DNA of 64,000 nt, from the NCBI GenBank assembly GCA_951828385.1, contig OX639973.1, forward strand, positions 1 through 64,000, in the 5' to 3' direction. Each line of letters opens with the position of its first letter. The first letter of the stretch is position 1. This document shows positions 5,061 through 21,817 of the stretch, one piece after another. Both the position numbers and the translations under genes were made by a program. The stretch comes from an uncultured Poribacteria bacterium (GTDB lineage: Bacteria > Poribacteria > WGA-4E > WGA-3G). The notes beneath the pieces were generated by a model. The model saw nothing but the letters and a program-made list of their open reading frames with translations, searched no databases and was not told the origin of the DNA.

Positions 5061-5780
5061 TTAGAGGTCCACCGCAATCCGAATACCGACACTATGAAGC
5101 CCCCGAATCGGCTCATACGCCGCACGGTTCGCACAACGCGCCGCAAACTCACCACGCGCAATCCACGAACCGCCACGAATCACCTTCCGCCGACCCTCAC
5201 TCGCACCCAATGGATTCTCGGCAGACGAATATTTATACGCCTCCATGTGAAACCAATCGAAACACCAATCGTAAGCATTACCCGCCATATCGTAGCACCC
5301 GTAAGGACTCACACCCGACGGATAACTCCCAACCGGCATCAGCCGCTTATTCCCCGATTCCGACGTATTCGCCCGACTTGCATCCCACGTATTCCCCCAA
5401 GGATACTCCCAAGCATTAGTCCCACGTGCAGCTTTCTCCCACTCCGCCTCCGATGGCAACCGATACGCCACGCCTTCCAGCGCACCGAGCCACTCCAAAA
5501 AATTGACAGCATCGTACCAACTCACGCCAACGACCGGAAAATCGGGCGCATTGAGACGTTCATCGTCCCAAAAAGGTGGTTGAGCGTATTCCGTCGCCTC
5601 CACAAACTGTGCATACTGTGCATTCGTGACCTGATACGTACCGATAGCATAAGCATCAAGCGTCACATTCCGTTGCGGTTCCTCTGGATCCGTCTTCCGC
5701 ATGCCAGTCGGAATCGTCCCCATCGTAAACGCCCCAGCGGGGATATGGATTAAAGGGTAATCAAGTGTTTCAATGTGCAT
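5061..5780 (-). CDS. Formylglycine-enzyme-fold (SUMF1/EgtB-type) protein lacking the FGE cysteines
   Basis: About 239 aa from the ATG at 5780; the frame extends to 5840 but the domain starts at once after 5780. The full FGE-sulfatase fold is readable: IPAGAFTMGTI, YQVTNAQYAQF, PVVGVSWYDAVNFLEWLG, YRLPSEAEWEKAARG, YPWGNTWD, VGSYPSGVSPYGCYDMAGNAYDW and KVIRGGSWIARGEFAARCANR. In true formylglycine-generating enzymes RGGSY is followed by C-x4-C. Here both positions are Ala, and only an unaligned Cys lies further on. It is therefore unlikely to activate the nearby sulfatase. Proteins of this fold without the Cys pair have other or unknown roles. No signal peptide is seen. Confidence 0.85.
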   Translation of the reverse strand: MHIETLDYPLIHIPAGAFTMGTIPTGMRKTDPEEPQRNVTLDAYAIGTYQVTNAQYAQFVEATEYAQPPFWDDERLNAPDFPVVGVSWYDAVNFLEWLGALEGVAYRLPSEAEWEKAARGTNAWEYPWGNTWDASRANTSESGNKRLMPVGSYPSGVSPYGCYDMAGNAYDWCFDWFHMEAYKYSSAENPLGASEGRRKVIRGGSWIARGEFAARCANRAAYEPIRGLHSVGIRIAVDL

Positions 5781-5974
5781 GTCCGGCGCGCCTGTCCTCC
5801 GATGCAAGTTTACAATAACACCGTTAGTATAACACATCACTAACCCCGTTTCAATTACTTCTGTAGGAGCAAGTGTTTTTGCTTGGGTATTTCTTGTCGC
5901 TCGCGATGCGCCATTCTCACCGCCATTTTGTCAAAGCCATTCAGTTCTCGGTTTTTTAGTCCAATTTCGCACTC

Positions 5975-6526: not shown

Positions 6527-6985
6527 ATGTTTATGAAAAGGTGGCAACTTGCGCTAATATTAATGGAATTTGAGTGGGACACAAACAAAGCCACAGTAAC
6601 ACACGATGAACTCCGTCCAGAGTACGATCTGAAAAAGTTGCGAGTGCGAAAATTCGGTCCTGCGCGTAAGCAGTTCGGTAACTTCGTCAAGTTAGCACCT
6701 GATGTCGCTGCAGTGTTTCCAGACGATCTTACCGTTAACAAAGCATTGCGATGCATGATCCAAGATTCCAAAGAAAACAGAAGGACACATTCTTACCGTT
6801 TACCAATGGAGACTTCAGACTCACCGTCTAAACAGCTTGATAATTCTATTGTCAAGTTAGAACCTGACGTTGCCGAAGCATTTCCAGACCCAGCGTCTGT
6901 GAATGAGGCACTCCGACACCTAATCCGAGACTGCAAAGAAAACGGTGAAGGATTCCTTGCTGCACAACATCGGAAAACGAAATAG
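6527..6985 (+). CDS. Antitoxin-like protein with an internal duplication
   Basis: 152 aa (140 if the ATG at 6563 is used). MEFEWDTNKA (residues 13-22) resembles the first residues of BrnT-type toxins, but the toxin body is missing. It is followed by ELRPEYDLKKL and two copies of a unit: NFVKLAPDVAAVFPDDLTVN and SIVKLEPDVAEAFPDPASVN, each ending in (K/E)ALR..I.(D/D)(S/C)KEN. The unit resembles short antitoxin-type sequences found beside toxin genes. No partner toxin follows; the next gene is the large ATPase at 7147. Whether this is a free antitoxin, a remnant, or part of the island is open. Confidence 0.6.
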   Translation: MFMKRWQLALILMEFEWDTNKATVTHDELRPEYDLKKLRVRKFGPARKQFGNFVKLAPDVAAVFPDDLTVNKALRCMIQDSKENRRTHSYRLPMETSDSPSKQLDNSIVKLEPDVAEAFPDPASVNEALRHLIRDCKENGEGFLAAQHRKTK

Positions 6986-7146
6986 CCCCATTCCTCCACA
7001 AAAACCTGTTGCTTTTTCGACTATTTATCGTATCATAAGTTATATGGAGAATCTCTTAATTTCTAAACACACAACTTCACCAGACTTGAAGAATCCTTCT
7101 TTCTCAGGCCACCAGGCATTCCCCTTGAAACCTTTAGAGAGGTATT

Positions 7147-10100
7147 ATGCGTAACGTCCCCTTGTCAGAAATTTTTCAGGTTAAAGGGCGTTTCCGGCGT
7201 TCGGTGCATCTCGAACGTGACTTCTACACAGAAAACGCCTTAGATGGATACGTCTTGACCGCGACTGCACGAGAGATGCTATCGCGCGTCATTTCTACAC
7301 TTGAAAATGAAACCACATCGAAAGCATGGTCCCTCACTGGTCCCTATGGTTCGGGGAAATCGGCATTCGCACTTTTCGCTGCGAAATTGCTCGGTGATCC
7401 TAATGCTCCTACAACCCAACAGGCTTTAGATCTGTTGAGACGAGGAGATACCAAGTTATATGAGAAGTTTAAGGACATAAACGGTAACGGAAAAAGATCA
7501 CTTTCGGGTTTCTGTCCGGTGCTTATCTCTGGTGAACGTGCCCCACTTTCACTCGGTCTTTTACGAGGTTTAGTACGTGGACTCACCGCTTCTAACGGTA
7601 CAATACCTTCTGCTTCATTGATTCAAGATATCCAAAATCTGTTGGAAACAGCAGAAAAAGGGACGCTGCTATCTGCCTCTGAAATTACTACTTTATTTGA
7701 GTCGGCAGCTCATGAAATCTGTGAATCTGGTGGCTCTGGTCTCCTTGTCGTAGTTGATGAACTCGGAAAATTCCTTGAGTATACTACACAACAACCGACA
7801 CAAGGGGATATGTTCATTCTTCAAACGCTTGCCGAATTCGCAGACAGAAGTGAAAATACCCCGCTCTTTCTGATGACGATTCTCCATCAGGCTTTTGAAC
7901 GCTACGCGGAACGCGCCGGTAAATCACAACAAGAAGAATGGGCAAAGGTTCAAGGTAGATTTGAAGATATCGCCTTTTCAGAGTCCACTGAACAGGTGCT
8001 CCGCTTAGTCGGGACAGCACTGGAGAAACATTCAGAAGTCGTCCCTAAAGACAACCTGAATACAGTAATTGACTTAGGACTTAAGCCGCACCAACTTAAG
8101 AAGAACGAATTTATCCCTCTATTAGAGAGTTGTCTACCGCTGCATCCGACGGTAGCACTCCTCATCGGTCCGATTTTCCGTCGATTCGCACAAAACGAAC
8201 GCTCCATTTTTGCTTTCCTCAGTGCAAGCGAGCCCTATGGACTACAAGATTTTTTGTCCCTTCAACATTACAATGGCAGCGTTCTGCCTACATTTTCGCT
8301 TGCTGATCTATACGACTATCTCAATGCTACACAGGGGAATCGTCTCTACACTTCCCAAACCGGTAAGAAGTGGGCAGAGATTGAATCCGCTATAAATCAA
8401 TTAGCAGACCCTTCTCCTATGGTAGTTCGACTTATTAAAACTATCGGGTTACTTGGTGTTGTTAACGAACCAATACCAAATCTGAAAGCCTCAGATGAAT
8501 TGCTCTATTATGCTCTTGATGATAACACTGAAGAATTCGCCACTGAATTTAAGAATGCGCTTTCGACTTTGAAAAGACGCTCAATAGTTATCCACCGTAG
8601 TTACAACAATGTTTACGCGCTTTGGGAAGGCAGCGATGTTGACATTGAGGCAAGACTCCGTGACGCAGCAGCGCGCGTTGACACAAAAGTCGCTCTCGCC
8701 ACTGATCTTTCGCGCTATATGCCAACACGTCCGCTCGTTGCACGGCGGCATCTTTTCCAAACCGGCACTTTGCGCTACTTTACTGTTCGGTATACCGATC
8801 TTGAGAATTTTGACGCAGATTTGGCAGAGCCACTCAATGATGCAGACGGACTTATCCTCTACGCACTGCCAGCAAGTGAGGAAGAGGTTACAAAACTCGT
8901 TAAAAAGGCAAACGATAGAGACACTGCGAATCGCGAAGAGGTGTTGATTGCAATCCCACGTACCATCGGTTTTCTACGAGATGCCGTCACACAACTCGCT
9001 TACTTACACTGGGTTGCTGAAAACACACCTGAACTTGAAGGCGATGCCGTCGCAAGGCGTGAACTCTCCGTACGGATGATAGAAGCAGAACGTGGCGTAA
9101 CTGATCGGTTAACAGAAATATTTGGTCAGAATAGCGAAGGTTCTTGTACATGGTATCACAAAGGACAACCCGCAGATATTAACTCTCCAAAAGCGAGAAA
9201 CACATATCTGTCAAGAATCTGTGACGTGGTATATCACAAAACACCTTTTATTCTCAATGAACTCATCAATCGCAGGAAAATTTCCGGTGCTGCAACAACC
9301 GCACGAAAAAAATTAATTCAAGCGATGCTTGAAAATGGAGAGAAGAAAAACCTCGGTATTACTGGCTATCCAGCTGAAATGAGTATCTACCGTTCCCTCT
9401 TGTGGAATACCGGAATACACCGAGAGGTTGAAGGCGTGTGGGGATTTCATCCACCAAATCCCGACGATAAAAATAAGACAAATCACGCGTGGAAAGCAAT
9501 TGAGAATTTTCTTGAAAAGTGTGAAGGGGAGCGACAATCTGTCGTCCAACTTTATGAACATCTGATGGCACCACCGATTGGTGTGCGAAGCGGTCCGCTG
9601 CCTATTCTTTTGTGTGCCGTGATGCACTATTATAAAACAGAAATTGCGCTCTATGAAAACGGATCCTTTATAGCAGATTGGTCAATGCCGGTTTTTGAGC
9701 GATTGCTTAAAGCACCGCAACAATTTGAACTGAAACGGTTCCGGATGGCAGGTATCCGTGCAGACCTATTTGCTCGACTTTTGCGGATGCTCAACCAACC
9801 CGTAGAAACCGAAAACCCAGATTTGCTGACGGTAGTTACGCCGCTGATGCGCTTCATTTCACAACTCCCGAAGTATACACTGGTAACACAAGAGTTAAGT
9901 GATAAAGCGATAAACCTTCGCAAAGCCGTACTGAATGCTCATGAACCCGACGAACTTCTCTTTAAACAGTTACCGGAAGCACTCGGTTTTCTGCCATTCG
10001 GGATAGAAACAACAAGCTCAAAAGCAGCTTACGACTTTTTTAACACACTGCAAGATGCCCTATCCGAGTTAGGGAATGCCTATGATATCCTGTTGAATTG

Positions 10101-10629
10101 GGTTGAACAGATGCTTGTAGAAGCGTTCAATTTGCCATCGACGAAGGAAGAACTCCGTGCAGAATTAGTCAGCAGAGCCGAACCCCTACAAGATACAGCG
10201 ATTGAGATCAAAGGATTTTTGACCCAAGTTTGTAGCGATGGACACGATTCAAGGAGTTGGCTTGAAGCAATAGCAACTAATCTTGCCAAAAAACCACCTG
10301 TATCGTGGTTTGAAATGGACAAAGCTCAATTTGAGTTTAACCTGTCTCTACTCGCGAGGAAGTTTCGCCACTTTGAAGCAGTCTCTTATGAAAAACTTAA
10401 GCACACTGAATTATCAAATGGGGAACCAATTCGGATTGGCATCACCAGACCGAGCCACCCTGAACAGGAGCAGGTTGTTACTTTTCCGTCAACAGCCGAG
10501 GCACAGCTTAACAAAATAGAACGCGAAATTGAGCAGGTGTTTGATAAATTTGACACCGATGGAAATTCTGAACTTCGTCTCGCAATTTTAGCGCGTATTT
10601 CACAAAAATTGATGCAAGAAGAGAAATAA
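7147..10629 (+). CDS. Large P-loop ATPase, BrxC/PglY-like (defence-associated)
   Basis: 1160 aa. Walker A is TGPYGSGKSAFALF at about residues 63-76. A Walker B-like stretch GLLVVVDELGKFLEY lies near residue 200, with FLMTILHQAFERYAER after it (sensor-like). The C-terminal 800 residues are helical and without a recognised motif. Size and layout resemble the big ATPases of BREX-type systems (BrxC, PglY); the resemblance is by eye only. It starts at an ATG after TTTAGAGAGGTATT and is followed after 78 bases by the PAPS-reductase gene, which has its own promoter. In type 4 BREX a BrxC homologue goes with a PAPS-reductase protein (BrxP), but PglZ and BrxL are absent here. Confidence 0.7.
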   Translation: MRNVPLSEIFQVKGRFRRSVHLERDFYTENALDGYVLTATAREMLSRVISTLENETTSKAWSLTGPYGSGKSAFALFAAKLLGDPNAPTTQQALDLLRRGDTKLYEKFKDINGNGKRSLSGFCPVLISGERAPLSLGLLRGLVRGLTASNGTIPSASLIQDIQNLLETAEKGTLLSASEITTLFESAAHEICESGGSGLLVVVDELGKFLEYTTQQPTQGDMFILQTLAEFADRSENTPLFLMTILHQAFERYAERAGKSQQEEWAKVQGRFEDIAFSESTEQVLRLVGTALEKHSEVVPKDNLNTVIDLGLKPHQLKKNEFIPLLESCLPLHPTVALLIGPIFRRFAQNERSIFAFLSASEPYGLQDFLSLQHYNGSVLPTFSLADLYDYLNATQGNRLYTSQTGKKWAEIESAINQLADPSPMVVRLIKTIGLLGVVNEPIPNLKASDELLYYALDDNTEEFATEFKNALSTLKRRSIVIHRSYNNVYALWEGSDVDIEARLRDAAARVDTKVALATDLSRYMPTRPLVARRHLFQTGTLRYFTVRYTDLENFDADLAEPLNDADGLILYALPASEEEVTKLVKKANDRDTANREEVLIAIPRTIGFLRDAVTQLAYLHWVAENTPELEGDAVARRELSVRMIEAERGVTDRLTEIFGQNSEGSCTWYHKGQPADINSPKARNTYLSRICDVVYHKTPFILNELINRRKISGAATTARKKLIQAMLENGEKKNLGITGYPAEMSIYRSLLWNTGIHREVEGVWGFHPPNPDDKNKTNHAWKAIENFLEKCEGERQSVVQLYEHLMAPPIGVRSGPLPILLCAVMHYYKTEIALYENGSFIADWSMPVFERLLKAPQQFELKRFRMAGIRADLFARLLRMLNQPVETENPDLLTVVTPLMRFISQLPKYTLVTQELSDKAINLRKAVLNAHEPDELLFKQLPEALGFLPFGIETTSSKAAYDFFNTLQDALSELGNAYDILLNWVEQMLVEAFNLPSTKEELRAELVSRAEPLQDTAIEIKGFLTQVCSDGHDSRSWLEAIATNLAKKPPVSWFEMDKAQFEFNLSLLARKFRHFEAVSYEKLKHTELSNGEPIRIGITRPSHPEQEQVVTFPSTAEAQLNKIEREIEQVFDKFDTDGNSELRLAILARISQKLMQEEK

Positions 10630-10638
10630 AGGCATAAT

Positions 10639-10667
10639 TTGACATTTTGGCAAATATATGTTATGCT
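10639..10667 (+). promoter_or_regulatory. Promoter of the PAPS-reductase gene
   Basis: TTGACA (10639-10644), a 17-base spacer and TATGCT (10662-10667), in the gap after the ATPase stop codon. This suggests the downstream genes can be transcribed separately from the ATPase. Confidence 0.55.
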
Positions 10668-10707
10668 TAAAATGTAGAAGTTAAAAACAACTATATTGGG
10701 AGAAAAC

Positions 10708-11544
10708 ATGAAACGAAATATCCGTCATCTGCTCGGTCTTTCTGGAGGAAAAGATAGTTCTGCGCTTGCTGTTTACATGCGGGATAGAGTGCCACAGATG
10801 GAATACTTTTTTACTGATACCGGAAAGGAATTACCAGAGACTTACGAGTTTTTGGATCGGTTAGAAGCGTTCCTCGGCAAACCAATTGCACGCCTCAATA
10901 TGGATCCCGATTCCCACAGTAACCGTGATTTTGATCACTGGTTAACACTTTATGGAGGTTTATTGCCATCGTCTCAAGTCCGTTGGTGCACGGTTAACCT
11001 TAAAATCAAACCGTTTGAGGATTACGTCGGTGAAGATAGCGCGTATAACTACGTTGCCATCCGCGCTGACGAAGATCGCGACGGTTATAAACCGCTAAAA
11101 ACCCCTTCTCTCCGCAATATTGAACCTAAATATCCGTTCAAAGATGATGGCATTACTAAAGAGGATGTGTACCGAATATTGGAGGAGAGCGGACTCGGTC
11201 TGCCCGACTATTATAAGTGGCGGACGCGCTCCGGTTGCTACTTCTGTTTTTTCCAACGCAAATCCGAATGGGTGGGACTATTAGAACGGCATCCCGACCT
11301 CTTTGAACTCGCCAAAGAATACGAGAAATTCGACCATGAGACAGGTGAACGGTTTACGTGGTGTCAAGGTGAAAGTTTGGAAGAGTTGTCGCAACCAGAA
11401 CGGATAGCACAGATTAAGGCGAACACCGAAAAAGCGATGGCATCCAAGAAAACAGCGAAACCGAATCGCCGTCTAATAGAAATCCTTACCGATGTCCATG
11501 ACGATGAGGATGATGAGGAACCGTGCTTGATTTGTCATAAGTGA
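10708..11544 (+). CDS. PAPS-reductase/DndC-like PP-loop sulfotransfer enzyme
   Basis: 278 aa from the ATG at 10708 (GGGAG five bases upstream). The PP-loop SGGKDSSALAVYM at residues 12-24 binds and activates ATP. A Cys in VRWCTVNLKIKPF, a C-x2-C in RSGCYFCFFQRKSEW and a C-terminal CLICHK could ligate an Fe-S cluster, as in DndC and related DNA-phosphorothioation enzymes. The WC..LKIKPF and GC.FC arrangement is typical of the DNA-modification branch more than of assimilatory CysH. The neighbours support this: a giant ATPase upstream and a phosphorothioate-reader-type nuclease 16 bases downstream. DndA, DndD and DndE are not in the window, so actual DNA sulfur modification is inference. Confidence 0.85.
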   Translation: MKRNIRHLLGLSGGKDSSALAVYMRDRVPQMEYFFTDTGKELPETYEFLDRLEAFLGKPIARLNMDPDSHSNRDFDHWLTLYGGLLPSSQVRWCTVNLKIKPFEDYVGEDSAYNYVAIRADEDRDGYKPLKTPSLRNIEPKYPFKDDGITKEDVYRILEESGLGLPDYYKWRTRSGCYFCFFQRKSEWVGLLERHPDLFELAKEYEKFDHETGERFTWCQGESLEELSQPERIAQIKANTEKAMASKKTAKPNRRLIEILTDVHDDEDDEEPCLICHK

Positions 11545-11560
11545 TACTTGGAAACTACCA

Positions 11561-12451
11561 ATGAATACGGAACAAATTCTTCAGAGATTTGAAACACTGC
11601 GACAGTGGGGGAGTGGTGGAGAAAGAGCACCACATAAACCGTTACTGGTCCTATATGCCATTGGAAAAATGTTGCGTGGTGAAGATAGACTCATTTCTTA
11701 CGCTGATGATATAGAGGAAAATCTTGAAAATCTACTGAGGGATTTTGGACCGAGACGCGATCGGTATAACCCGCATTTTCCATTTTGGCGACTGCAAAAT
11801 GATGAAATATGGGAGGTATCCAATGCCGACCAAATTAGACAAACTACCAGTGGGGACCCATACATAACTGATTTAAGGGAGCATAATGCTTCTGGTGGCT
11901 TTAATGAAAATATTGCTGAACAACTTCAAAACAACTCTGAACTAACATTTGAAATAGTCCTCAGCCTGTTAAATGCTCATTTTCCCCCTTCACTTCACGA
12001 AGACATTTTACAAGCTGTTGACATTGAACTTCCACTCCAAGCCTTTAATACGAGAACGCGGACATCTAACTTCCGAAAAAATGTTCTCAGGGCCTACGAA
12101 TATAAATGCGCTATCTGCGGCTTTGATGTGAAACTGGGAACCTCACCTATAGCGTTAGAAGCTTCTCATATCAAATGGCAAAAGGCTGGTGGACCCAATG
12201 AAGCAGTAAATGGTTTAGCTCTCTGCGTAATGCATCACAAATTATTTGACCGCGGTGCTTTTACATTGTCAAGGCAATGGCAAGTCTTGGTATCGGATGA
12301 GGCACACGGATCGGTAGGATTGCAGGAGTGGCTTAAGGATTTCCATGGGCAAACAATTAACTTTCCCCAAAGACGAACCTATTATCCAGAGATGGATTTC
12401 ATTGGCTGGCATGTTAGAGAGGTATTTCAAGGGGATTATCGCGAACTGTAA
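11561..12451 (+). CDS. Phosphorothioate-DNA-binding-type HNH restriction endonuclease
   Basis: 296 aa. The N-terminal half carries the pattern of the sulfur-binding domain of ScoMcrA-type enzymes: RAPHKPLLVLYAIG (about 23-36), LLRDFGPRR (about 59-67) and PFWRLQNDEIWEV. The C-terminal half is an HNH domain: CAICG (about 183), LEASHIKW with the first His, GGPNEAVNGLALC with Asn, and MHHKLFDRGAF with the last His. Family members cut DNA bearing phosphorothioate linkages. It lies 16 bases after the PAPS-reductase gene, so writer-like and reader-like genes are adjacent. A reader that cuts self-modified DNA would be harmful, so the two may act in a coupled or regulated way. Alternatively the nuclease may target foreign PT-DNA. 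Confidence 0.88.
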   Translation: MNTEQILQRFETLRQWGSGGERAPHKPLLVLYAIGKMLRGEDRLISYADDIEENLENLLRDFGPRRDRYNPHFPFWRLQNDEIWEVSNADQIRQTTSGDPYITDLREHNASGGFNENIAEQLQNNSELTFEIVLSLLNAHFPPSLHEDILQAVDIELPLQAFNTRTRTSNFRKNVLRAYEYKCAICGFDVKLGTSPIALEASHIKWQKAGGPNEAVNGLALCVMHHKLFDRGAFTLSRQWQVLVSDEAHGSVGLQEWLKDFHGQTINFPQRRTYYPEMDFIGWHVREVFQGDYREL

Positions 12452-12527: not shown

Positions 12528-14528
12528 ATGAGAAGTAGCGAACTCATACCAATAGAAAACGGATTAACACTCAATTTTCTAAAGATGGTTTTCAACAAAG
12601 ATACACTTTTTCTGCGAAAAACATTGTACTCAGACGAGTTGTACAACGAATATAAACTTAATCCAGATTTTTTCATTTACAGAATTAAGGATAACCTATA
12701 TATCTGGGAACTTCACCCAACCAACCAGCAACTGCCGCGTGTTTTTGAACAGGTAGAAATAACTATAAAAGAATACCCACGGATTTTCTCAAAAATTGCA
12801 GAACGCGCTATTGTGCAGTTTTTCAGAAACAATAATCGGCAAACCACATGGAATAAATACTCTTCGATTTGGGAAGTTGAACTAAAAAAGGAAAAACAAG
12901 AGAACTTTAATGCTTTATCTCTACAGCCAACTTTGAGGTTTTCTGTAATAGATCTCTATTCCACACTTTCCCAAAGGCAGGTTATTGCTTTAAGCATTAG
13001 AAGACGTATGAAACCTTTTTTTACCGAAAGTGAAGAGTCAATCATGAATCAACTTACAGACAACAGCGAATTGACTCGAAATTATAGGGGGGAAATCAAC
13101 GCCTCAACTCATAATCTGAATAAATACCTCGAGGCCACTGGACAAAAAAAAGATTATAGAAGTTACCTTGGAAAAAGGCAGACACGGCTCACCGAATTTG
13201 AATTTTTGAAGACAAGTGCCAAGAACTTTAATCACATTGCACCAGATATTTATATGCCAGATGGATTGAAAATCTCAAAGTTTTCTATTATTAACCCAAC
13301 GATTGCTTTTTTTAAAACTGCTAAAATTCCAAAACCTAAATACTGTTATTACAATGAAAGAACTATGGCCGGATATTACAATGAAGCTGTATCCAAATCA
13401 AAACCATATTCGTATGATCTCTTTAGCAACCAAAAAGTGAATATTCTTGTTGTGTCCCCTGACAAATATGATAGAAGTATCAGGGAGCATATCAAGACCT
13501 TGGATAGGAAATTGCAAACGCTGTTTCATTTAAAGGATGTTAAATTTCACCTAAAAATCATAAAGTCACCGGAAACCTACCTTGATGTACTAGATAAGAT
13601 AGATGCCAATAATTATAATTTGGCTATTATTGTAGTCTCCCAACAAGACAAGGAAATGTGCACCTCACAGTCTCCGTATTATTTGACCAAGGCCAAATTG
13701 TTAAATCAACGATTGCCAACTCAAGAATTAACAATAGAAGTTATCAGGAACAGCTCTGAAATTATAGATAATGATATTGCACTAAATATTTACTCCAAAC
13801 TTGGCGGTGTAGCGTGGACGATAGAGAAATCTGAAAAAAACATCTCTGAACTTGTTATTGGAATTGGATCCACAATTGATGATTGCGGAGAACGGATAAT
13901 CGGCTTTGCCAGTGTTTTTGATTACAATGGTACTTATCTTATTGGAGATTGTAGTCAATTAAGCACAATGAACAAATATACGGAAAACCTTGAGAACTAT
14001 TTAGTAAACGCTCTGACCCAGGCTTTCCATCAGAAAGGTTTATCAAAAGGAGACGAGGTTCGGCTTATATTCCATCTGTTTAAGGAAGCTGGTAAAAGAC
14101 ATGAATTAACAGCCATCGGCAATGCTCTCAGACGTTTTAAAGGATATGATGTTGAATATAGTCTGGTCCATCTCAGCACTTATGGGCACAACTATCGGAT
14201 TTTCAAAAATCAAGGCAGGAGCAGCCCGAATCGTGGGACTTTTGTGCAGTTGTCATCTCAGCAAGCACTGCTTCATTTGGGAGGTAATACCGTTGTACCC
14301 ATACAAGTACGTTTGGATAATAGATCCAAATACACAGATATATTTGAAATCACGCAACAGGTTCTTTATTTTGCTCACCTTTCTTACCGTAGCTTCATCC
14401 ATGGTGGTCAACCTGTTACTATAAAATACCCAAACCTAATGGCAAACATGGTTAGCGAACTTAAAAAAGTGCCTAATTGGGACCACTCAATTTTAAATAA
14501 ATTAAACGAAACCCTTTGGTTTATATAA
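12528..14528 (+). CDS. Catalytically inactive long-type prokaryotic Argonaute (MID-PIWI)
   Basis: 666 aa. The MID region has the guide-5'-phosphate pocket pattern YYLTKAKLLNQRLPTQ (about 383-398). The PIWI domain spans about 435-666: ELVIGIGSTID, RIIGFASVFDYNGTYLIGD, EVRLIFHLFKEAGKRHE (about 510-525), VEYSLVHLSTYGHNYRIF, and YFAHLSYRSFIHGGQPVTI. In slicing Argonautes the first PIWI strand ends in an Asp (GID) and the third catalytic Asp follows the I-h-R strand. Here these are IGIG and HLFK, so the DEDX tetrad is broken. Dead long Argonautes sense guide-matched DNA and trigger a partner effector. The partner is probably the membrane protein one base downstream. The start is an ATG after AAGGATGTAGAAAC. 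Confidence 0.88.
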   Translation: MRSSELIPIENGLTLNFLKMVFNKDTLFLRKTLYSDELYNEYKLNPDFFIYRIKDNLYIWELHPTNQQLPRVFEQVEITIKEYPRIFSKIAERAIVQFFRNNNRQTTWNKYSSIWEVELKKEKQENFNALSLQPTLRFSVIDLYSTLSQRQVIALSIRRRMKPFFTESEESIMNQLTDNSELTRNYRGEINASTHNLNKYLEATGQKKDYRSYLGKRQTRLTEFEFLKTSAKNFNHIAPDIYMPDGLKISKFSIINPTIAFFKTAKIPKPKYCYYNERTMAGYYNEAVSKSKPYSYDLFSNQKVNILVVSPDKYDRSIREHIKTLDRKLQTLFHLKDVKFHLKIIKSPETYLDVLDKIDANNYNLAIIVVSQQDKEMCTSQSPYYLTKAKLLNQRLPTQELTIEVIRNSSEIIDNDIALNIYSKLGGVAWTIEKSEKNISELVIGIGSTIDDCGERIIGFASVFDYNGTYLIGDCSQLSTMNKYTENLENYLVNALTQAFHQKGLSKGDEVRLIFHLFKEAGKRHELTAIGNALRRFKGYDVEYSLVHLSTYGHNYRIFKNQGRSSPNRGTFVQLSSQQALLHLGGNTVVPIQVRLDNRSKYTDIFEITQQVLYFAHLSYRSFIHGGQPVTIKYPNLMANMVSELKKVPNWDHSILNKLNETLWFI

Positions 14529-14529
14529 A

Positions 14530-15453
14530 ATGCTGTTAATTTACGAGTTAAAAAAGTTAAGGCATAGTCTTCTCAATAATTCTAACTTAAGCCCAAAGGA
14601 AAAGGCATTTTATCAATTTCTCGTGGATGAACCCTTGAATTATCCAATAAAGAATAACTCAGCTGAGATCGAACAGATTTGCCTTTCAGTTTTCAGTGGT
14701 GACCTCTTATCAAAGAAAGAACTAATTGCAACACAAAGAAAAAAGCAACCAATTCACGGGATGCATTATACGAAGAATTTAGTTGAACTGTCCGCTATGG
14801 GAATAGACGATGTTGAATTAGAGCGTAAAAACCTACAGTCATATTGTGAAAGGTGTTCAACACGGGAATTTTATGTTCTCAATAGTTTATTTCCAGACAT
14901 TTCTTCTAACCCGCCGCAACCCCAAGGGACAATTGACCAGATTGCATTACATCTTTATGAAAACAATTTCCCACAGGAGGGGTGGAAATCTCTTTTACTT
15001 AGGGGATTGTATGAAGTTTCGGATTTGATAGATTTCTACGTAATCGAACAAGGATATCAACGAGCAATGGATGATAATCCGATTGCCCATCGAACAAAGG
15101 ACATCATTTATGCGAGAAAGATTCTCGTTCAAATTGTTGCCAAAACTGAACGTCGTGCCAAACTTACTTTCAAGATAGTTAGTGTCCTCCTTGTGGCACC
15201 TACATATTACTGGCTAGCCTCTTTGATCATCAGAAATTGGGATAAGGCCGAACCAATTATGGCAGTCATTCAACCCCTCTTTTATCTTATAGGAGTCTTG
15301 TTTATTATATTTGTGGGGTTTATTCCAAATCGAATAAAATTTCTTAACTTCCTTATGGAAAACGTCATTGACTGGGTGTTTAGAAGAAAAGGGCTTAACC
15401 GGTTAGAGTTAAAAGAAACATTAGACCGGCTAACATATCAAAGTGAGCAATAA
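14530..15453 (+). CDS. Argonaute-associated two-helix membrane protein (putative effector)
   Basis: 307 aa. Its ATG begins one base after the Argonaute stop codon, so the two are almost certainly co-translated. About 210 soluble, mostly helical residues are followed by two hydrophobic segments: KIVSVLLVAPTYYWLASLII at about 213-232 and a segment around LFYLIGVLFIIFVGFIP at about 250-268. A charged tail of about 35 residues follows. No enzymatic motif is recognised. Membrane proteins encoded next to dead long-B Argonautes are known as effectors (BPAM-type) that damage the membrane and cause abortive infection. This gene fits that layout, but sequence homology to BPAM was not tested. Confidence 0.75.
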   Translation: MLLIYELKKLRHSLLNNSNLSPKEKAFYQFLVDEPLNYPIKNNSAEIEQICLSVFSGDLLSKKELIATQRKKQPIHGMHYTKNLVELSAMGIDDVELERKNLQSYCERCSTREFYVLNSLFPDISSNPPQPQGTIDQIALHLYENNFPQEGWKSLLLRGLYEVSDLIDFYVIEQGYQRAMDDNPIAHRTKDIIYARKILVQIVAKTERRAKLTFKIVSVLLVAPTYYWLASLIIRNWDKAEPIMAVIQPLFYLIGVLFIIFVGFIPNRIKFLNFLMENVIDWVFRRKGLNRLELKETLDRLTYQSEQ

Positions 15454-15971: not shown

Positions 15972-16001
15972 TTGACACACTTTTATTGGACGTGTTACTA
16001 T
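15972..16001 (+). promoter_or_regulatory. Promoter of the FRG-TPR gene
   Basis: TTGACA (15972-15977), an 18-base spacer and TACTAT (15996-16001). It lies 45 bases before the ATG at 16046. Confidence 0.55.
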
Positions 16002-16045
16002 TACATTTACAAAACTATCGTTATAAAAAAGAAAAGCGGACCAGC

Positions 16046-18064
16046 ATGTTAAACCAATCCAACTCCCAAAATGCCCTGTTAAGCAGCGTTCTGGAAATTA
16101 TCCGTAGGATAGAGGAAAAATCGGTGGATAGTCTCTATATATACCGTGGAGAACCCGCGTCCCATATATATCGTGAAGAACCTGCGCCCCATTTAAAAAT
16201 CTGTTCAAGTCTCTACCGTGAATATCAAGACATTGAAACGGATTCTTTTGATATAGAGACCCTTCAAATGGAGATTCTAACCGAGGCAAAGGATTACACG
16301 GATGAAACAAGCGATTTCAACATCCTTGTGGATATCCAACGTTATGGTGGGAAAACTAACCTCATTGAGTTTACAACTGACTATCTCATCGCCCTTTTCT
16401 TTGCCTGTGTTGATTCGTCTGATAAAGATGGTAGAGTTATCCTACAAAAAGTTGAGGAAATAAAAGATATAATCTATGATCCTTCGTCGAAACCACACAG
16501 TCATGTCAGTATCCAAAAGATTGTATTTATTAGACCTCCCAAGGGCTTTATTCAACCGAATGCATCTGATGTAATCACTATCCCACATAACCTCAAACAA
16601 TCTATACTAGATCACCTACAGAAGTCGCATGATATATCTGCTAGAACCATTTATGACGATCTCTATGGATTTGTCATGACTCACAACATCCATCATAGTG
16701 CCTATACTGAGTATCATAGGGGTCTAACTTGGCAACATAGAGGAATTGAAGCGAGTACATCTGAAGAAAAACAAAACGCCTTTGGAAAAGCTATTATGCA
16801 TTATAATGAAGCATTAGCATTGAAATCAAATGATGCCGTTATCTATTATAATCGCGGGGTGGTTCACTTTAATATAGACGAGTATGACAACGCTATTTCA
16901 GACTATACCAAAGCAATAAAATTCAAACCCGATTATGCAGATGCCTATTACCATCGCGGGCTTACTTACTTGAACAATGGTCAATATGATAAAGCTATTT
17001 CAGACTATACTAAAGCAATAGAACTCAAACCCGATTATGCAGATGCCTATTACCATCGCGGGCTTACTTACTTGAACAATGGTCAATATGATAAAGCTAT
17101 TTCAGACTATACTAAAGCAATAGAACTCAAACCCGATTATATAGATGCCTATCATCATCGCGGGCTTACTTACTCTAGCAAAGGTGAAACTGATTTGTCT
17201 ATTTCAGACTATAATACGGTAATAGATCTTGATCCTAATAATTCTGATGCCTACTTCAACCGAAGTTTTGCTTACCACGTCAAGGGTGAGATAGAATGTG
17301 CGAGAGCGGATTATGACAAATCAATGGAACTAAGACCAAATGATATCTTGGGGCAAGGAGAAATCAAAGGCTTTCTTTACTCAATGAAATTACGATTTGA
17401 TGAAGCAATATCAGGAGAACCTTATTATCGAATCTTCGCTGTTCCCCTGACATTAGTTTCAGATGCAGTTCGGACTCAGGAACTGGAAATTCGTAACATT
17501 TTACGGAACCCTCCAGACGTACGTAAGGGAGCTTTTGGCTTCATAGGTATTCCAGAAGTTTTACCAATTCCTGATGGAATTAGTGGTTTAAACTTTGGTG
17601 AAGGTGAAGTAATCTTATTGAACAATGGATTTCTTGAATTACGATGTCCATTGTCTGACAGTGTATTTCAATGGCAAATATCGACCTATGAAAAGTTTTG
17701 GGATTCAGAGTGGTTATACCCTTATGTCGTTTGTGAATTTCCAGTCACATTCTTACGTTTAGTAAAAGCAATCTATACAACATCTAATATTAATTTTCCG
17801 ATTATTGTTCAACAAGAATATCACAACCTCAACGGTTTTGTGCTGGTGGGCAGGCATCCAGGCAATCCGAAGTTTGGCATATTCGAGAACGAGCGACGTG
17901 TCTACGAGTCCGACTACCCGATTATTTCAAAACAGACTGTGTCTCCAAATTTTTCGCCTGATCAGATTGCTTATGACTTTGTAACAGACGTGTATACCCA
18001 TTTTGGGTTAACTACAACGTTAATGCCTGAACTGTTTGACGAAGAACATAATTTTGTTCTCTGA
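16046..18064 (+). CDS. FRG-domain protein with TPR repeats
   Basis: 672 aa from the ATG at 16046 (an upstream in-frame start at 15986 overlaps the promoter and is unlikely). Residues about 20-160 are an FRG domain: YIYRGEPASH, SSLYREYQD, LVDIQRYGGKTNLIEFTTDYLIALFFA. Residues about 215-440 hold five or six TPRs of the form AYYHRGLTYLNNGQYDKAIS DYTKAIELKPDY; two successive ones are identical at DNA level. The C-terminal 230 residues are not recognised. FRG domains occur in phage-defence and mobile-element proteins of unknown chemistry, and the TPRs suggest a protein-sensing arm. It stands between the Argonaute operon and an ATPase/TOPRIM pair on the same strand but has its own promoter. Confidence 0.82.
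   Translation: MLNQSNSQNALLSSVLEIIRRIEEKSVDSLYIYRGEPASHIYREEPAPHLKICSSLYREYQDIETDSFDIETLQMEILTEAKDYTDETSDFNILVDIQRYGGKTNLIEFTTDYLIALFFACVDSSDKDGRVILQKVEEIKDIIYDPSSKPHSHVSIQKIVFIRPPKGFIQPNASDVITIPHNLKQSILDHLQKSHDISARTIYDDLYGFVMTHNIHHSAYTEYHRGLTWQHRGIEASTSEEKQNAFGKAIMHYNEALALKSNDAVIYYNRGVVHFNIDEYDNAISDYTKAIKFKPDYADAYYHRGLTYLNNGQYDKAISDYTKAIELKPDYADAYYHRGLTYLNNGQYDKAISDYTKAIELKPDYIDAYHHRGLTYSSKGETDLSISDYNTVIDLDPNNSDAYFNRSFAYHVKGEIECARADYDKSMELRPNDILGQGEIKGFLYSMKLRFDEAISGEPYYRIFAVPLTLVSDAVRTQELEIRNILRNPPDVRKGAFGFIGIPEVLPIPDGISGLNFGEGEVILLNNGFLELRCPLSDSVFQWQISTYEKFWDSEWLYPYVVCEFPVTFLRLVKAIYTTSNINFPIIVQQEYHNLNGFVLVGRHPGNPKFGIFENERRVYESDYPIISKQTVSPNFSPDQIAYDFVTDVYTHFGLTTTLMPELFDEEHNFVL
16931..17134 (+). 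repeat. Two identical 102-bp tandem repeats inside the TPR region
   Basis: 16931-17032 and 17033-17134 are identical. Each encodes one 34-residue TPR. A third, partly diverged unit follows from 17135. The identity implies recent expansion or gene conversion. Confidence 0.9.
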
Positions 18065-18141
18065 ATTCTACACTCTCTGTGATAAAATAAAAAAGGCATA
18101 TTCAAATCAATGTTGGCATTCAATTTTATTTAAGGGATATT

Positions 18142-19353
18142 ATGATTATCACACATCTTAGTGCCACAAACTGGCGAAACTTTCGACAGATTGATGTTCC
18201 ACTTAGCGAACGTCAGTTTATTGTCGGTCCGAATGCCTCGGGCAAATCCAATTTTTTGGACATTTTTCGCTTTCTTCGAGATATTGCCAAAAATGAAAGG
18301 GGCGGGCTACAGGCAGCAGTTGCCAGTCGCGGGAGCGTAGCTATCATACAAAGTTTGGTGGTAGAGCAAGATGCGGAGGTTGCAATTGAAGTCCGCCTTG
18401 CCGACACGTCAGAATCTGCTGAGACTTGGAAATATGCGATAGGGTTTCGCCAAGCACCTCAAAGTCAAAGTTACAGTCATCGTTATTTTGCTTCACTCAC
18501 ACATGAGCGAGTGTGGAAAGACGGTAAACTGCTCATAGATAGACCTGATGCAGAAGACGAAAAGGATTTAGATCGACTCACCCGAACGTCTCTTGAAGAA
18601 ACCAATCATGATATACGAGAATTAGTGAACTTTTTTCATTCCATCACCTATCTTCATTTAGTCCCGCAACTGCTCCGTTTTCCCGATTTAATTACGGTAG
18701 ACTCTGTTGAAACCGATACCAATGCCCAACGTTCAGGCTCCAGATCCAGAAACAAGTCAACCCGAACTCAACTTGGTCACGGTTTACTTGAAAAGATTGC
18801 TAGTGTAGACGAAGATACCCGTTGTTCACGCATGAAAACGATTGAAGAAGCACTCAAGATTGCTATACCTCAACTTGAGCATTTGGAATTTAAACATGAT
18901 GAAGTGGGGCGTCCACATTTATCGGTACGCTGCTCCCATTGGCATCCAAGTTCACCTGCACAACACGAGGAACAATTTTCCGATGGGACGCTTCGGCTAC
19001 TGGGTCTTTTGTGGGCTCTCCTTGAAAGTGACTCATTACTCCTATTAGAAGAACCCGAACTTTCCTTACACGTGGGGATTGTATCACAACTTGCATATCT
19101 ACTCTTTGGAATGAAAGCGAGTAAAAATCAACAGGTATTAGTCAGTACTCATAGCGATGTTCTTCTCACGGAACCGGGTATTGATGGAACAGAAGTATTG
19201 ATGCTCACACCTACAAAAGTAGGAACAGAAGTGAAATTAGCCTCCGATATTGGCGATGTCCGGCATCTTCTTAAGGCAGGGTTCACAGCTGGTGAAGTGG
19301 TTTTTACAGACCCACAATCTGAGCATTCTGAAAGGTTAGGTTTATTGAAGTGA
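18142..19353 (+). CDS. ABC-type (AAA_21/OLD-like) ATPase of a two-gene defence pair
   Basis: 403 aa. The SMC/RecF-like N-terminus ITHLSATNWRNFRQIDVPL is followed by Walker A VGPNASGKSNFLDIF (about 28-42). The ABC signature is FSDGTLRLLGLLWAL (about 280), Walker B is LLLLEEPELSLH (about 300), and the switch His is in VLVSTHSDVLL. About 200 variable residues lie between the halves, as in OLD, Gabija and AriA ATPases. The start is an ATG with TTTAAGGGATATT upstream. The stop overlaps the GTG start of the next gene, so the two are coupled. The pairing of such an ATPase with a TOPRIM-like protein recalls PARIS (AriA/AriB), but AriB is a DUF4435 protein. Confidence 0.85.
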   Translation: MIITHLSATNWRNFRQIDVPLSERQFIVGPNASGKSNFLDIFRFLRDIAKNERGGLQAAVASRGSVAIIQSLVVEQDAEVAIEVRLADTSESAETWKYAIGFRQAPQSQSYSHRYFASLTHERVWKDGKLLIDRPDAEDEKDLDRLTRTSLEETNHDIRELVNFFHSITYLHLVPQLLRFPDLITVDSVETDTNAQRSGSRSRNKSTRTQLGHGLLEKIASVDEDTRCSRMKTIEEALKIAIPQLEHLEFKHDEVGRPHLSVRCSHWHPSSPAQHEEQFSDGTLRLLGLLWALLESDSLLLLEEPELSLHVGIVSQLAYLLFGMKASKNQQVLVSTHSDVLLTEPGIDGTEVLMLTPTKVGTEVKLASDIGDVRHLLKAGFTAGEVVFTDPQSEHSERLGLLK

Positions 19354-19988
19354 ATTTAGACCATGTCATCCTTGCCGCTGAAGATAGATTAAGCGAAGCT
19401 GTAGCAACTAAAATTCTTATGAACATGGGCTTTAAGATCGTTAGAAAACCTCAAAAACCAAGAAATTCCCGCCTTAAAGGAAACTCTTACCTGAAAAAAA
19501 GAGCACCTGAGTTCAACAGAAGTGCTACAGGACCTTATTATTTTTTTATGTTAACAGATTTAGATTCCCCTAAAATTTGTCCACCAGAACTAATCCAATC
19601 TTGGATTAATGCCCCTCTAAATCCTAGATTTTTCCTTCGTGTTGCGGTTATGGAAGTTGAATCTTGGGTGATGGCGGATCAGAGTGCCTTTGCTGAATTT
19701 CTAAGGGTACCAATACAAGAAGTCCCAACCAGAACAGACGAGATTCCTGATCCTAAAGCTTTACTACTTTCGCTTGCCCAAAAAAGCAAATCTGGGCGAC
19801 TGCGAAAAGATATGTTACCCAAAAATGGGAATAAAACTTCAAAAATAGGACCTGGATACAATAACCGCTTATGTGGATTTGTCCGAGATTATTGGGATAT
19901 GAACCGCGCTGTCTCCGTTTCGCCAAGTCTCAAACGAACTATAGATCGGCTTCAAAGTACAAAACCTATCCTTGGGACAGATCAATGA
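19350..19988 (+). CDS. DUF4276/TOPRIM-like partner of the ATPase
   Basis: 212 aa starting at GTG 19350 inside the previous stop (GTGA overlap), with AAAGGTTAGG upstream. Conserved points: AAEDRLSEAVATKIL (acidic E/D after the first strand), YYFFMLTDLDSPK (the DLD of a TOPRIM-like fold), VAVMEVESWVMADQSAFAEFL (E-E-W-D) and IPDPKALLLSLAQKS. These are typical of DUF4276-type TOPRIM proteins. The likely role is a nuclease or effector released or activated by the ATPase. The substrate is unknown. Confidence 0.72.
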   Translation: MNLDHVILAAEDRLSEAVATKILMNMGFKIVRKPQKPRNSRLKGNSYLKKRAPEFNRSATGPYYFFMLTDLDSPKICPPELIQSWINAPLNPRFFLRVAVMEVESWVMADQSAFAEFLRVPIQEVPTRTDEIPDPKALLLSLAQKSKSGRLRKDMLPKNGNKTSKIGPGYNNRLCGFVRDYWDMNRAVSVSPSLKRTIDRLQSTKPILGTDQ

Positions 19989-20216: not shown

Positions 20217-20951
20217 ATGACAGGTGAAGAAAAATTTCAGGTAGACCTTGAAGGCTACCTCGTCATAAAGAACGTCTTGACCGACGACGAAGTCGCCGAG
20301 ATGAACGAGATTATTGATAGCGGAAACCGGCAAGGACCGCCGAGTCTCTGGGGTGAACCGTTCAAACGGCTTATCGACCATCCGACAATCCTCCCTTACC
20401 TCATCGAACTGTTGGGAGCGCATGTCCGACTGGATCACGATTACTCTCTCTTTATGCAGAAAGGGCAAGGTCGTGGCGGATTACACGGCGGCGAGGACGG
20501 TGGACGCGCCGGTGGACACGTCGGCGATCACTGGTATAAATACCGAGACGGACACATCCGAAATGGACTCTCCGTGATGACATACAATCTGGCGGACGCA
20601 CCCGCAGGCGCAGGCGGATTCGCCTGTATCCCGGCGAGCCATAAGAGCAACTTCGCACCGGAAATCCCATCGGAAGTACGCCGATTTGAACGTCCGGCAC
20701 ACTATGTCGTCCAACCGCCCGTTGAAGCGGGGGATGTGCTGTTTTTCACGGAAGCACTCATTCACGGCACGATGCCGTGGACAGCCGATCACGAACGCCG
20801 GTCATTGCTCTACAAATACAGTCCCGGACACTCCGCGTGGTCACAGAATTATTACGACCTCAGCAAATACGACGGGTTAACAGAGCAACAAAAACGGATG
20901 CTAATGCCACCCTCCATCGGCAGGCGTCCCCGCGTCATTGACCCAGATTGA
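20217..20951 (+). CDS. Phytanoyl-CoA dioxygenase (PhyH) family protein, tandem copy 1
   Basis: 244 aa. The PhyH double-stranded beta-helix pattern is clear: FQVDLEGYLVIKNVLTDDEV, GEPFKRLIDHPTILPYLIELLG, NLADAPAGAGGFACIPASHKSNF and VEAGDVLFFTEALIHGTMPW. The last segment contains the distal iron-ligand His. The proximal ligands of Fe(II)/2-oxoglutarate enzymes are H-x-D/E. Here the corresponding region reads GGLHGGEDGG, H-x-x-E, so metal ligation is not certain. An AAAAGGAG site precedes the ATG. The gene at 21083 is about four-fifths identical by eye and has exactly the same length. Confidence 0.85.
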   Translation: MTGEEKFQVDLEGYLVIKNVLTDDEVAEMNEIIDSGNRQGPPSLWGEPFKRLIDHPTILPYLIELLGAHVRLDHDYSLFMQKGQGRGGLHGGEDGGRAGGHVGDHWYKYRDGHIRNGLSVMTYNLADAPAGAGGFACIPASHKSNFAPEIPSEVRRFERPAHYVVQPPVEAGDVLFFTEALIHGTMPWTADHERRSLLYKYSPGHSAWSQNYYDLSKYDGLTEQQKRMLMPPSIGRRPRVIDPD

Positions 20952-20976
20952 ACACCGAAAGATCCGTGTATAGTAA

Positions 20977-21064
20977 CCCAAGTTGCTACTAACAAGTTTT
21001 TGAACATTGTAAGAAGATTGTTCAGGTGTTTTTCTACCCCGTAGGGGTAATATGTCTATAGAAA
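20977..21064 (+). repeat. Leader repeat, copy 2
   Basis: 88 bases from CCCAAGTTGCTACTAACA through TACCCCGTAGGGGTAATAT to GTCTATAGAAAA, ending 18 bases before the second PhyH start codon. It is the partner of 6403-6491. A TATAGT element sits just in front of it, where copy 1 has TAAAAT. Confidence 0.6.
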
Positions 21065-21082
21065 ACAAAAGGAACTGCAACC

Positions 21083-21817
21083 ATGACAGGTGAAGAGAAA
21101 TTTCAGGTAGACCTTGAAGGCTACCTCGTCATAAAGAATGTCTTGACCGAAGATGAAGTTGCCGAGATGAACGACATCATTGATAACAGCGAACGCCAAG
21201 GCCCGCCAAGCCTCTGGGGTGAACCTTTTAAGAGACTGATTGATCATCCGACAATCCTGCCGTATCTCATTGATCTCTTGGGTCCGCATGTCCGACTCGA
21301 CCACGACTATGCCATCTTTATGGAAGAAGGACAGAAAGGTGGTAGATTGCACGGCGGCGAAGATGGTGGCGGTCCCGGTGGACCTGAAGGCGATCACTGG
21401 TACAAATATCGTGACGGCATCATGCGCAACGGTTTATGTGTGATGACCTACAACTTAGCGGACGCACCCGAAGGCGCGGGTGGATTCGCCTGTATTCCCG
21501 GAAGCCATAAGAGCAATTTCTTGCGAGAAATTCCGTCAGATGTACGGCAATTTGAACGTCCGACACATTACGTTGCGCAACCGCCCGTTGAAGCCGGAGA
21601 TGTGTTATTCTTCACCGAAGCACTCGTTCACGGGACGATGCCGTGGACAGCAAAACATCGACGGCGTGCGCTGCTCTATAAATACAGTCCCGGACACTCC
21701 GCATGGGCAGGGCATTATTACGACCTCAGCAAATACGGCGAGTTGACAGAACAACAGAAACGGATGTTGTTGCCGCCCTCTATTGGGAGTCGTCCCCGCG
21801 TCGTTGATGCGGATTAA
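21083..21817 (+). CDS. Phytanoyl-CoA dioxygenase (PhyH) family protein, tandem copy 2
   Basis: 244 aa, a close duplicate of the gene at 20217. Differences are concentrated in the metal-site loop (MEEGQKGGRLHGGEDGGGPG) and in surface positions. The distal His segment ALVHGTMPW and the IPGSHKSNF loop are kept. The ATG follows AAAAGGAACTGCAACC. Only 11 bases separate its stop from the ankyrin gene, so these two probably form one transcript. The duplication carries the leader repeat in front of this copy only. Confidence 0.85.
   Translation: MTGEEKFQVDLEGYLVIKNVLTEDEVAEMNDIIDNSERQGPPSLWGEPFKRLIDHPTILPYLIDLLGPHVRLDHDYAIFMEEGQKGGRLHGGEDGGGPGGPEGDHWYKYRDGIMRNGLCVMTYNLADAPEGAGGFACIPGSHKSNFLREIPSDVRQFERPTHYVAQPPVEAGDVLFFTEALVHGTMPWTAKHRRRALLYKYSPGHSAWAGHYYDLSKYGELTEQQKRMLLPPSIGSRPRVVDAD

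Follow-up and report, generated by a model that had tools for sequence, protein, structure and literature searches.

The DNA analysed here (the window, 64,000 nucleotides) comes from the genome of a sponge-associated Candidatus Poribacteria, assembled as one 6.66 Mb contig. ORF calling recovered three co-directional ORFs in line on one strand, as the first-pass annotation had reported, and these belong to a longer row of features that includes a remnant gene on the left and two further genes on the right (Table 1). The locus is bordered on the left by MutY and FGE-like genes (5061–5840) and on the right by tandem PhyH-like dioxygenases of ~244 aa each (20217–21817), borders that are common to several relatives and between which the gene sets vary. 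Another candidate defence set adjoins the SspC-SspD-HNH locus at positions 15986–19988, where the gene for an FRG-domain/TPR protein (PDC-S15-like in PADLOC) precedes those for an AAA_21 ATPase and a DUF4276 protein (HEC-01A/HEC-01B in PADLOC); FRG/TPR, AAA_21, and DUF4276 genes likewise lie 3' of the HNH gene in G080 (locus L149).

Table 1. Features of the locus, with window coordinates and the basis of each assignment.
Feature	Position	Strand	Basis
ORF152, probable regulator	6527..6985	+	152 aa; ~40-aa motif present twice; weakly VapB-antitoxin-like
sspB remnant	7014..7154 (approx.)	+	tblastn to SspB N-termini; translation
SspC-family AAA+ ATPase	7147..10629	+	uninterrupted ORF, 1160 aa; PADLOC SspC E=0
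SspD, PP-loop sulfurtransferase/ATP-pyrophosphatase family	10699..11544	+	PADLOC SspD 1.3e-117; SGGKDS loop, five invariant Cys; called as 10696/10708-11544, ~281 aa
SBD-HNH PT-DNA-dependent restriction endonuclease (predicted)	11561..12451	+	296 aa; NCBIfam NF045808; Pfam HNH_2; SBD homology 5zmm, 5zmo, 7cc9
Long-B-type pAgo	12528..14528	+	666 aa; PADLOC pAgo 7e-203; Pfam Piwi
Membrane protein	14530..15453	+	307 aa; 1-2 hydrophobic segments; start immediately 3' of the pAgo stop codon

Two of the three family assignments made at first pass had to be revised. The ATPase, taken to be BrxC/PglY-like, scored 1114.8 bits (E = 0) against the PADLOC SspC model versus only 688.6 bits for the best BrxC model, and its identity to SspC proteins was 57–85% across more than 40 Poribacteria; the PP-loop enzyme, taken to be DndC-like, was matched by DndC models at only ~1e-5, as opposed to 1.3e-117 for SspD. 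The third assignment, an HNH nuclease with a phosphorothioate (PT)-binding domain, held. This protein scored 338 bits against NF045808, 'phosphorothioated DNA-binding restriction endonuclease' (cut-off 180), and its SBD aligns with the solved SBDs of ScoMcrA and SprMcrA, with a sulfur pocket (defined in PMC6224610) composed of H25, K26, F73, and P74 and a lid residue that is Phe (F73) versus Tyr in ScoMcrA. The HNH catalytic motif is intact (CAICG, ASHIKW, VNGLAL, MHHKLFD), and the gene begins 16 bp after sspD. The same genome also contains a distant second SBD-HNH-like match (G000:C1:197681-198610; 31% identity) with an in-frame TAA. Relatives of ORF152, which form a small family, were found at L056, L063, L084, L091, L148, L154, and L158; the family stands at the upstream edge in many of the cassettes, whether the first gene is HNH, SspB, or SspD. 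L078 has a relative between SspC and SspD, L158 has one 3' of SspC, and the family is possibly a shared regulator.

The usual layout in Poribacteria places a DUF4007-type SspB of ~320 aa 5' of SspC in most loci. Here, SspC and SspD are present and intact and SspB survives as a 36-codon remnant with the translation MENLLISKHTTSPDLKNPSFSGHQAFPLKPLERYYA*, in which 27 N-terminal and ~9 C-terminal residues flank an in-frame deletion of ~277 codons; the start region is kept, the original stop still overlaps the sspC start, and identity to the SspB N-termini of relatives is 57–74% (tblastn, E down to 2e-15). SspB is the nickase of Ssp systems and is essential to PT formation (PMC7188994), and the Ssp writer of this locus is accordingly predicted to be disabled by the loss of sspB and unable to write PT. 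No second SspB was found in the genome using a Poribacteria SspB query that matches 47 of the 85 genomes surveyed, and it is this query on which the absence rests, the PF13182 search for DUF4007 being uninformative alone as it returned no match in this genome and none in any control genome either. A genome-wide search with PF01507 gave two matches only, SspD and a 260-aa CysH-like protein, and thus no DndC or BrxP, which serve other PT writers as catalytic subunits, was detected in the whole genome. PADLOC identified no PglZ, BrxL, Dnd, or SspE genes among the nine neighbouring proteins scanned. Cysteine-desulfurase-family genes are represented by ten PF00266 matches in the genome, unsorted as to class, none of which adjoins the locus.

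These searches agree with the gene absences listed in the first-pass annotation (PglZ, BrxL, and the Dnd genes) and also bear on its suggestion that the trio might be chance neighbours if full BREX or Dnd genes existed, in that the genome yielded no second writer; the list nonetheless omitted sspB, which is the loss that matters. The paradox that had been seen in a writer-like gene beside a gene that cuts written DNA largely dissolves once sspB is recognised as deleted. As sspB is lost and the searches revealed no further PT writer, the host DNA is expected to be free of PT marks. SspC is under ordinary constraint with no relaxation seen, and being both intact and unrelaxed it indicates that the loss of sspB may be recent. 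An intact SspD and an intact, ordinarily constrained SspC would also be in keeping with a writer that still functions, another nickase or recognition subunit substituting for SspB in trans, yet we regard this as very improbable given that the genome has no SspB/DUF4007, DndC, or BrxP match and that SspC has also been lost in most sister loci.

We surveyed 85 Poribacteria genomes, MAGs of varying completeness from one phylum, and classified their SspD loci by hand from the tool output; the gene counts were 52 for SspD, 48 for SspC, 47 for SspB, and 39 for HNH. A complete SspB + SspC writer was present in 0/15 of the genomes in which HNH occupies the slot after SspD (the window genome G000, G082, G084, G047, G036, G046, G041, G044, G031, G034, G037, G040, G013, G020, and G021) versus 40/40 of the other SspD loci, for which the two genes were scored anywhere in the genome (Fisher 8e-14). 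Where the HNH gene lies upstream of SspB, in turn, SspB, SspC, and SspD were present and unbroken in 12/12 cases (some at contig ends), and the upstream genes belong to the same subfamilies as those found after SspD; all 28 SspD loci with no adjacent HNH were from genomes possessing both SspB and SspC, with G045 C118 lacking the two locally and several of the 28 ending at contig edges. An HNH gene directly 5' of intact SspBCD was seen at L057, L059, L060, L061, L063, L065, L072, L091, L103, L105, and L155. The broken-writer state arose ~9 times on the SspD tree and is not confined to one clade, and the scars differ: G034 has an sspB breakpoint different from that of the window and an SspC stop at codon 1036, G082 has two in-frame TGA codons, G084 retains an SspB N-terminal relic adjoining SspD, and SspC is absent from G013. 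Two of the genomes, G084 and G047, are assembled as single contigs, which makes an artefact of missing contigs less likely. A second, divergent SspBCD lineage, whose SspD has 57–58% identity to that of the window, was observed at L062 and L069 (G072 C37 and G079 C212), and both of these genomes also carry the main SspBCD lineage.

The search for the same gene order elsewhere, which had been proposed at first pass, thus recovered SspD-HNH adjacency in ~14 Poribacteria genomes, a link beyond chance. That the genes merely share a defence hotspot with no functional tie is an idea invited by the site itself, which runs from MutY/FGE-like to PhyH-like genes, carries defence-like genes on its right, and varies in content among relatives; the recurrence of SspD-HNH in ~14 genomes, at several sites and with constant spacing, together with the order SspD-HNH-pAgo-membrane protein in two families of the order, leaves this idea with very little credibility. 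On plasmids, no gene annotated as HNH or PT-dependent nuclease adjoins SspD in any of seven SspD loci, and a DUF4007 (SspB) gene is nearby in most of them; the plasmid relatives of the HNH (best 40–43% identity) are in records other than SspD loci, with the one exception of Methylibium petroleiphilum PM1, where HNH and SspD are ~120 kb apart.

We favour the explanation, with a probability of roughly 0.6, that an Ssp island decayed and was remodelled into a PT-targeting restriction cassette in which the writer is dead and an SBD-HNH nuclease sits in the effector slot. Under this explanation, a host without PT would leave the intact HNH nuclease free to act as a type-IV-like enzyme, cutting incoming DNA that PT-writing neighbours have marked, and the loss of sspB would spare the host from self-damage by that nuclease; the unit kept would be an SspD-HNH cassette, to which SspC is still attached here. 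PT-reading nucleases beside PT writers are a standing puzzle: an SBD-HNH enzyme co-expressed with dndA-E kills its Streptomyces host, with about half of the exconjugants carrying mutated dnd clusters (PMC3009677), and a genomic survey suggested that the rare cases of writer and SBD-HNH coexistence may have mutated writers (PMC7461809). The ~15 loci described here, with roughly nine independent origins, fit the mutated-writer idea, and the 12 loci of the other gene order contradict its simplest form. PT toxicity alone is insufficient as an account because 12 genomes pair an upstream HNH of the same subfamily with an intact writer, and for the same reason a harmless effector swap and a toxicity-driven loss are not separated here. 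Ssp marks CpsCA, and the characterised SBD enzymes favour Gps contexts. This difference may render the HNH nuclease harmless to Ssp marks, in which case the writer could decay once effectors that use self-PT had been displaced. A comparison of pocket residues showed no clear partition between the HNH proteins that coexist with intact writers and the rest.

Intact loci have many different effector sets in the slot after SspD, GIY-YIG + DndB-like being one, and these sets are absent from nearly all writer-broken loci. The sets, seen at L057, L059, L061, L063, L065, L066, L071, L074, L076, and others, include ~710-aa pairs, ~760-aa and ~640-aa proteins, and a GHKL-like 818-aa protein, and they appear to constitute a repertoire of unnamed PT-linked effectors. 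Their disappearance would be expected if HNH replaced the PT-dependent effectors and SspB and SspC then decayed neutrally for want of use, with SspD the last to go, and the damaged copies of SspD suit that sequence of events: a relic of 41 residues lies 5' of the HNH gene in G080, where the chromosomal site is that of the window, SspD is truncated in G040, and it contains a TGA in G037. Neutral decay is nevertheless unlikely in our estimation. The writer of G021 is broken although another effector pair was kept there, and SspD is as constrained in the absence of its partners as elsewhere, the codon-model omega for the seven genomes lacking SspB or SspC being 0.056, versus 0.049 (HNH upstream) and 0.079 (no HNH) in the comparison groups, whose writers are intact; all three values are group averages from subset codon models. 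Pairwise dN/dS of SspD ranged from 0.01 to 0.08, including between genomes without SspB and SspC, and between G041 and G044, which share a common site without SspBC, omega was 0.02 at a dS of ~1.

The retention of SspD is also the observation that counts against our favoured explanation, as a simple decay of SspB and SspC predicts the decay of SspD, and SspD is mostly intact. Of the 21 HNH loci where the writer is incomplete, 13 have an intact SspD, 2 an intact SspC, and 1 an intact SspB (Fisher 0.0009 and 0.0002 for SspD versus SspC and SspB, respectively). The PP-loop and the five cysteines of SspD are invariant, the gap between SspD and HNH is 15–19 bp in 10/11 of the loci measured (48 bp in G013), and the HNH gene is directly 3' of SspD wherever a genome has SspD but lacks both SspB and SspC. 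Strong purifying selection without SspB and SspC, taken with the tight spacing to HNH, suggests that SspD is probably useful without these partners. Since neither toxicity nor displacement predicts a conserved SspD, a serious rival is a two-protein unit in which SspD, fed by a desulfurase, works without SspB and SspC on, for example, the ends or nicks of invader DNA or a different substrate, with SspD either supplying the product on which HNH acts or controlling HNH. Selection, spacing, invariant residues, and the constant 3' HNH all favour such a unit, as does the presence of cysteine-desulfurase-family genes in the genome; against it, HNH persists without an intact SspD in six genomes and thus does not need SspD, and the literature on Ssp that we consulted gives no case of SspD acting without SspB. 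We hold this two-protein unit to be a possibility worth keeping in view, though a doubtful one.

The pAgo that follows the HNH gene has EcAgo as its closest solved structure (4.8e-39, PDB chains), and GIG/GVG replaces the first catalytic Asp motif in both available copies, those of the window genome and G013, by which we judge it to be a catalytically inactive protein of the long-B type. A member of this pAgo family with the membrane protein was found in 2/85 genomes only, these two, which come from different families of the order, share the gene order SspD-HNH-pAgo-membrane protein, and show 60% and 53% identity for the pAgo and membrane protein, respectively. Other Piwi matches among the 85 genomes were distant ones in four genomes, the plasmid relatives of the pAgo were likewise distant only, and the membrane protein had no relatives among the plasmids. 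AlphaFold models built on two-sequence alignments were unusably poor (pLDDT of 42.5 for the membrane protein and 35.2 for the pAgo). Long-B pAgos accompanied by membrane proteins (BPAM) have been described as probable abortive-infection systems (PMC10620215), and by analogy the co-inherited pair of pAgo and membrane protein is most likely a long-B-type module of its own for guide-triggered abortive infection; the pair may either work with SspD-HNH or just accompany it, and two genomes are compatible with both. A bolder proposal, which we consider improbable, is that SspD and SBD-HNH would constitute a two-gene tag-and-cut or sulfur-controlled defence, with the mark put or sensed on invader DNA and not on self, joined in two lineages by the inactive Argonaute and the membrane protein to make one four-gene system.

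The locus is therefore wider than the trio delimited in the first-pass annotation, which was correct in its three genes and too narrow in its boundary, as the sspB remnant lies to the left and the pAgo and membrane protein to the right. The proposal of a compact, possibly undescribed sulfur-related defence survives in its link to sulfur and to defence, and gives way in that the families (SspC, SspD, SBD-HNH) are known and do not amount to a new writer-plus-cutter system; what is unexpected is that SspD is kept under strong selection without SspB and SspC. The preserved SspD poses the question of what job a sulfur-transfer subunit performs once the nickase and ATPase are gone.

Among known systems, membership in Dnd was ruled out, PF01507 being found only in SspD and the CysH-like protein and the DndC models being weak. 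The locus has in common with type 4 BREX an SspC-like ATPase and a PAPS-reductase family protein, but neither PglZ nor BrxL occurs among the nine neighbours, the genome has no DUF4007 match, and the SspC and SspD models fit far better; type 4 BREX was ruled out on these model scores and on gene content, the latter being scoped to the nine neighbours for PglZ and BrxL. The pAgo and membrane protein resemble BPAM in gene layout, with an inactive long-B-type pAgo and a membrane-protein gene directly 3' of it, and differ in being coupled to SspD-HNH in both of the genomes known here. With EcoWI, SprMcrA, and ScoMcrA, the HNH protein shares the SBD fold family, the pocket His, Lys/Arg, and Pro, and the HNH domain, and with EcoWI and SprMcrA it also shares the lack of an SRA domain; it is set apart from these SBD-HNH enzymes by a lid Phe in place of Tyr and by the position of its gene, which directly follows SspD in what was once an Ssp operon, fewer than 3.6% of SBD-HNH genes having been found near a dnd cluster in a published survey. 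The closest system is Ssp itself (SspABCD with SspE or SspFGH), with which the locus shares the SspC and SspD families, the gene order, and the effector slot after SspD, and in Poribacteria the sister loci that remain intact are SspBCD islands of the ordinary kind; the locus departs from Ssp in that sspB is a remnant, no SspE was found adjoining, and an SBD-HNH nuclease fills the slot.
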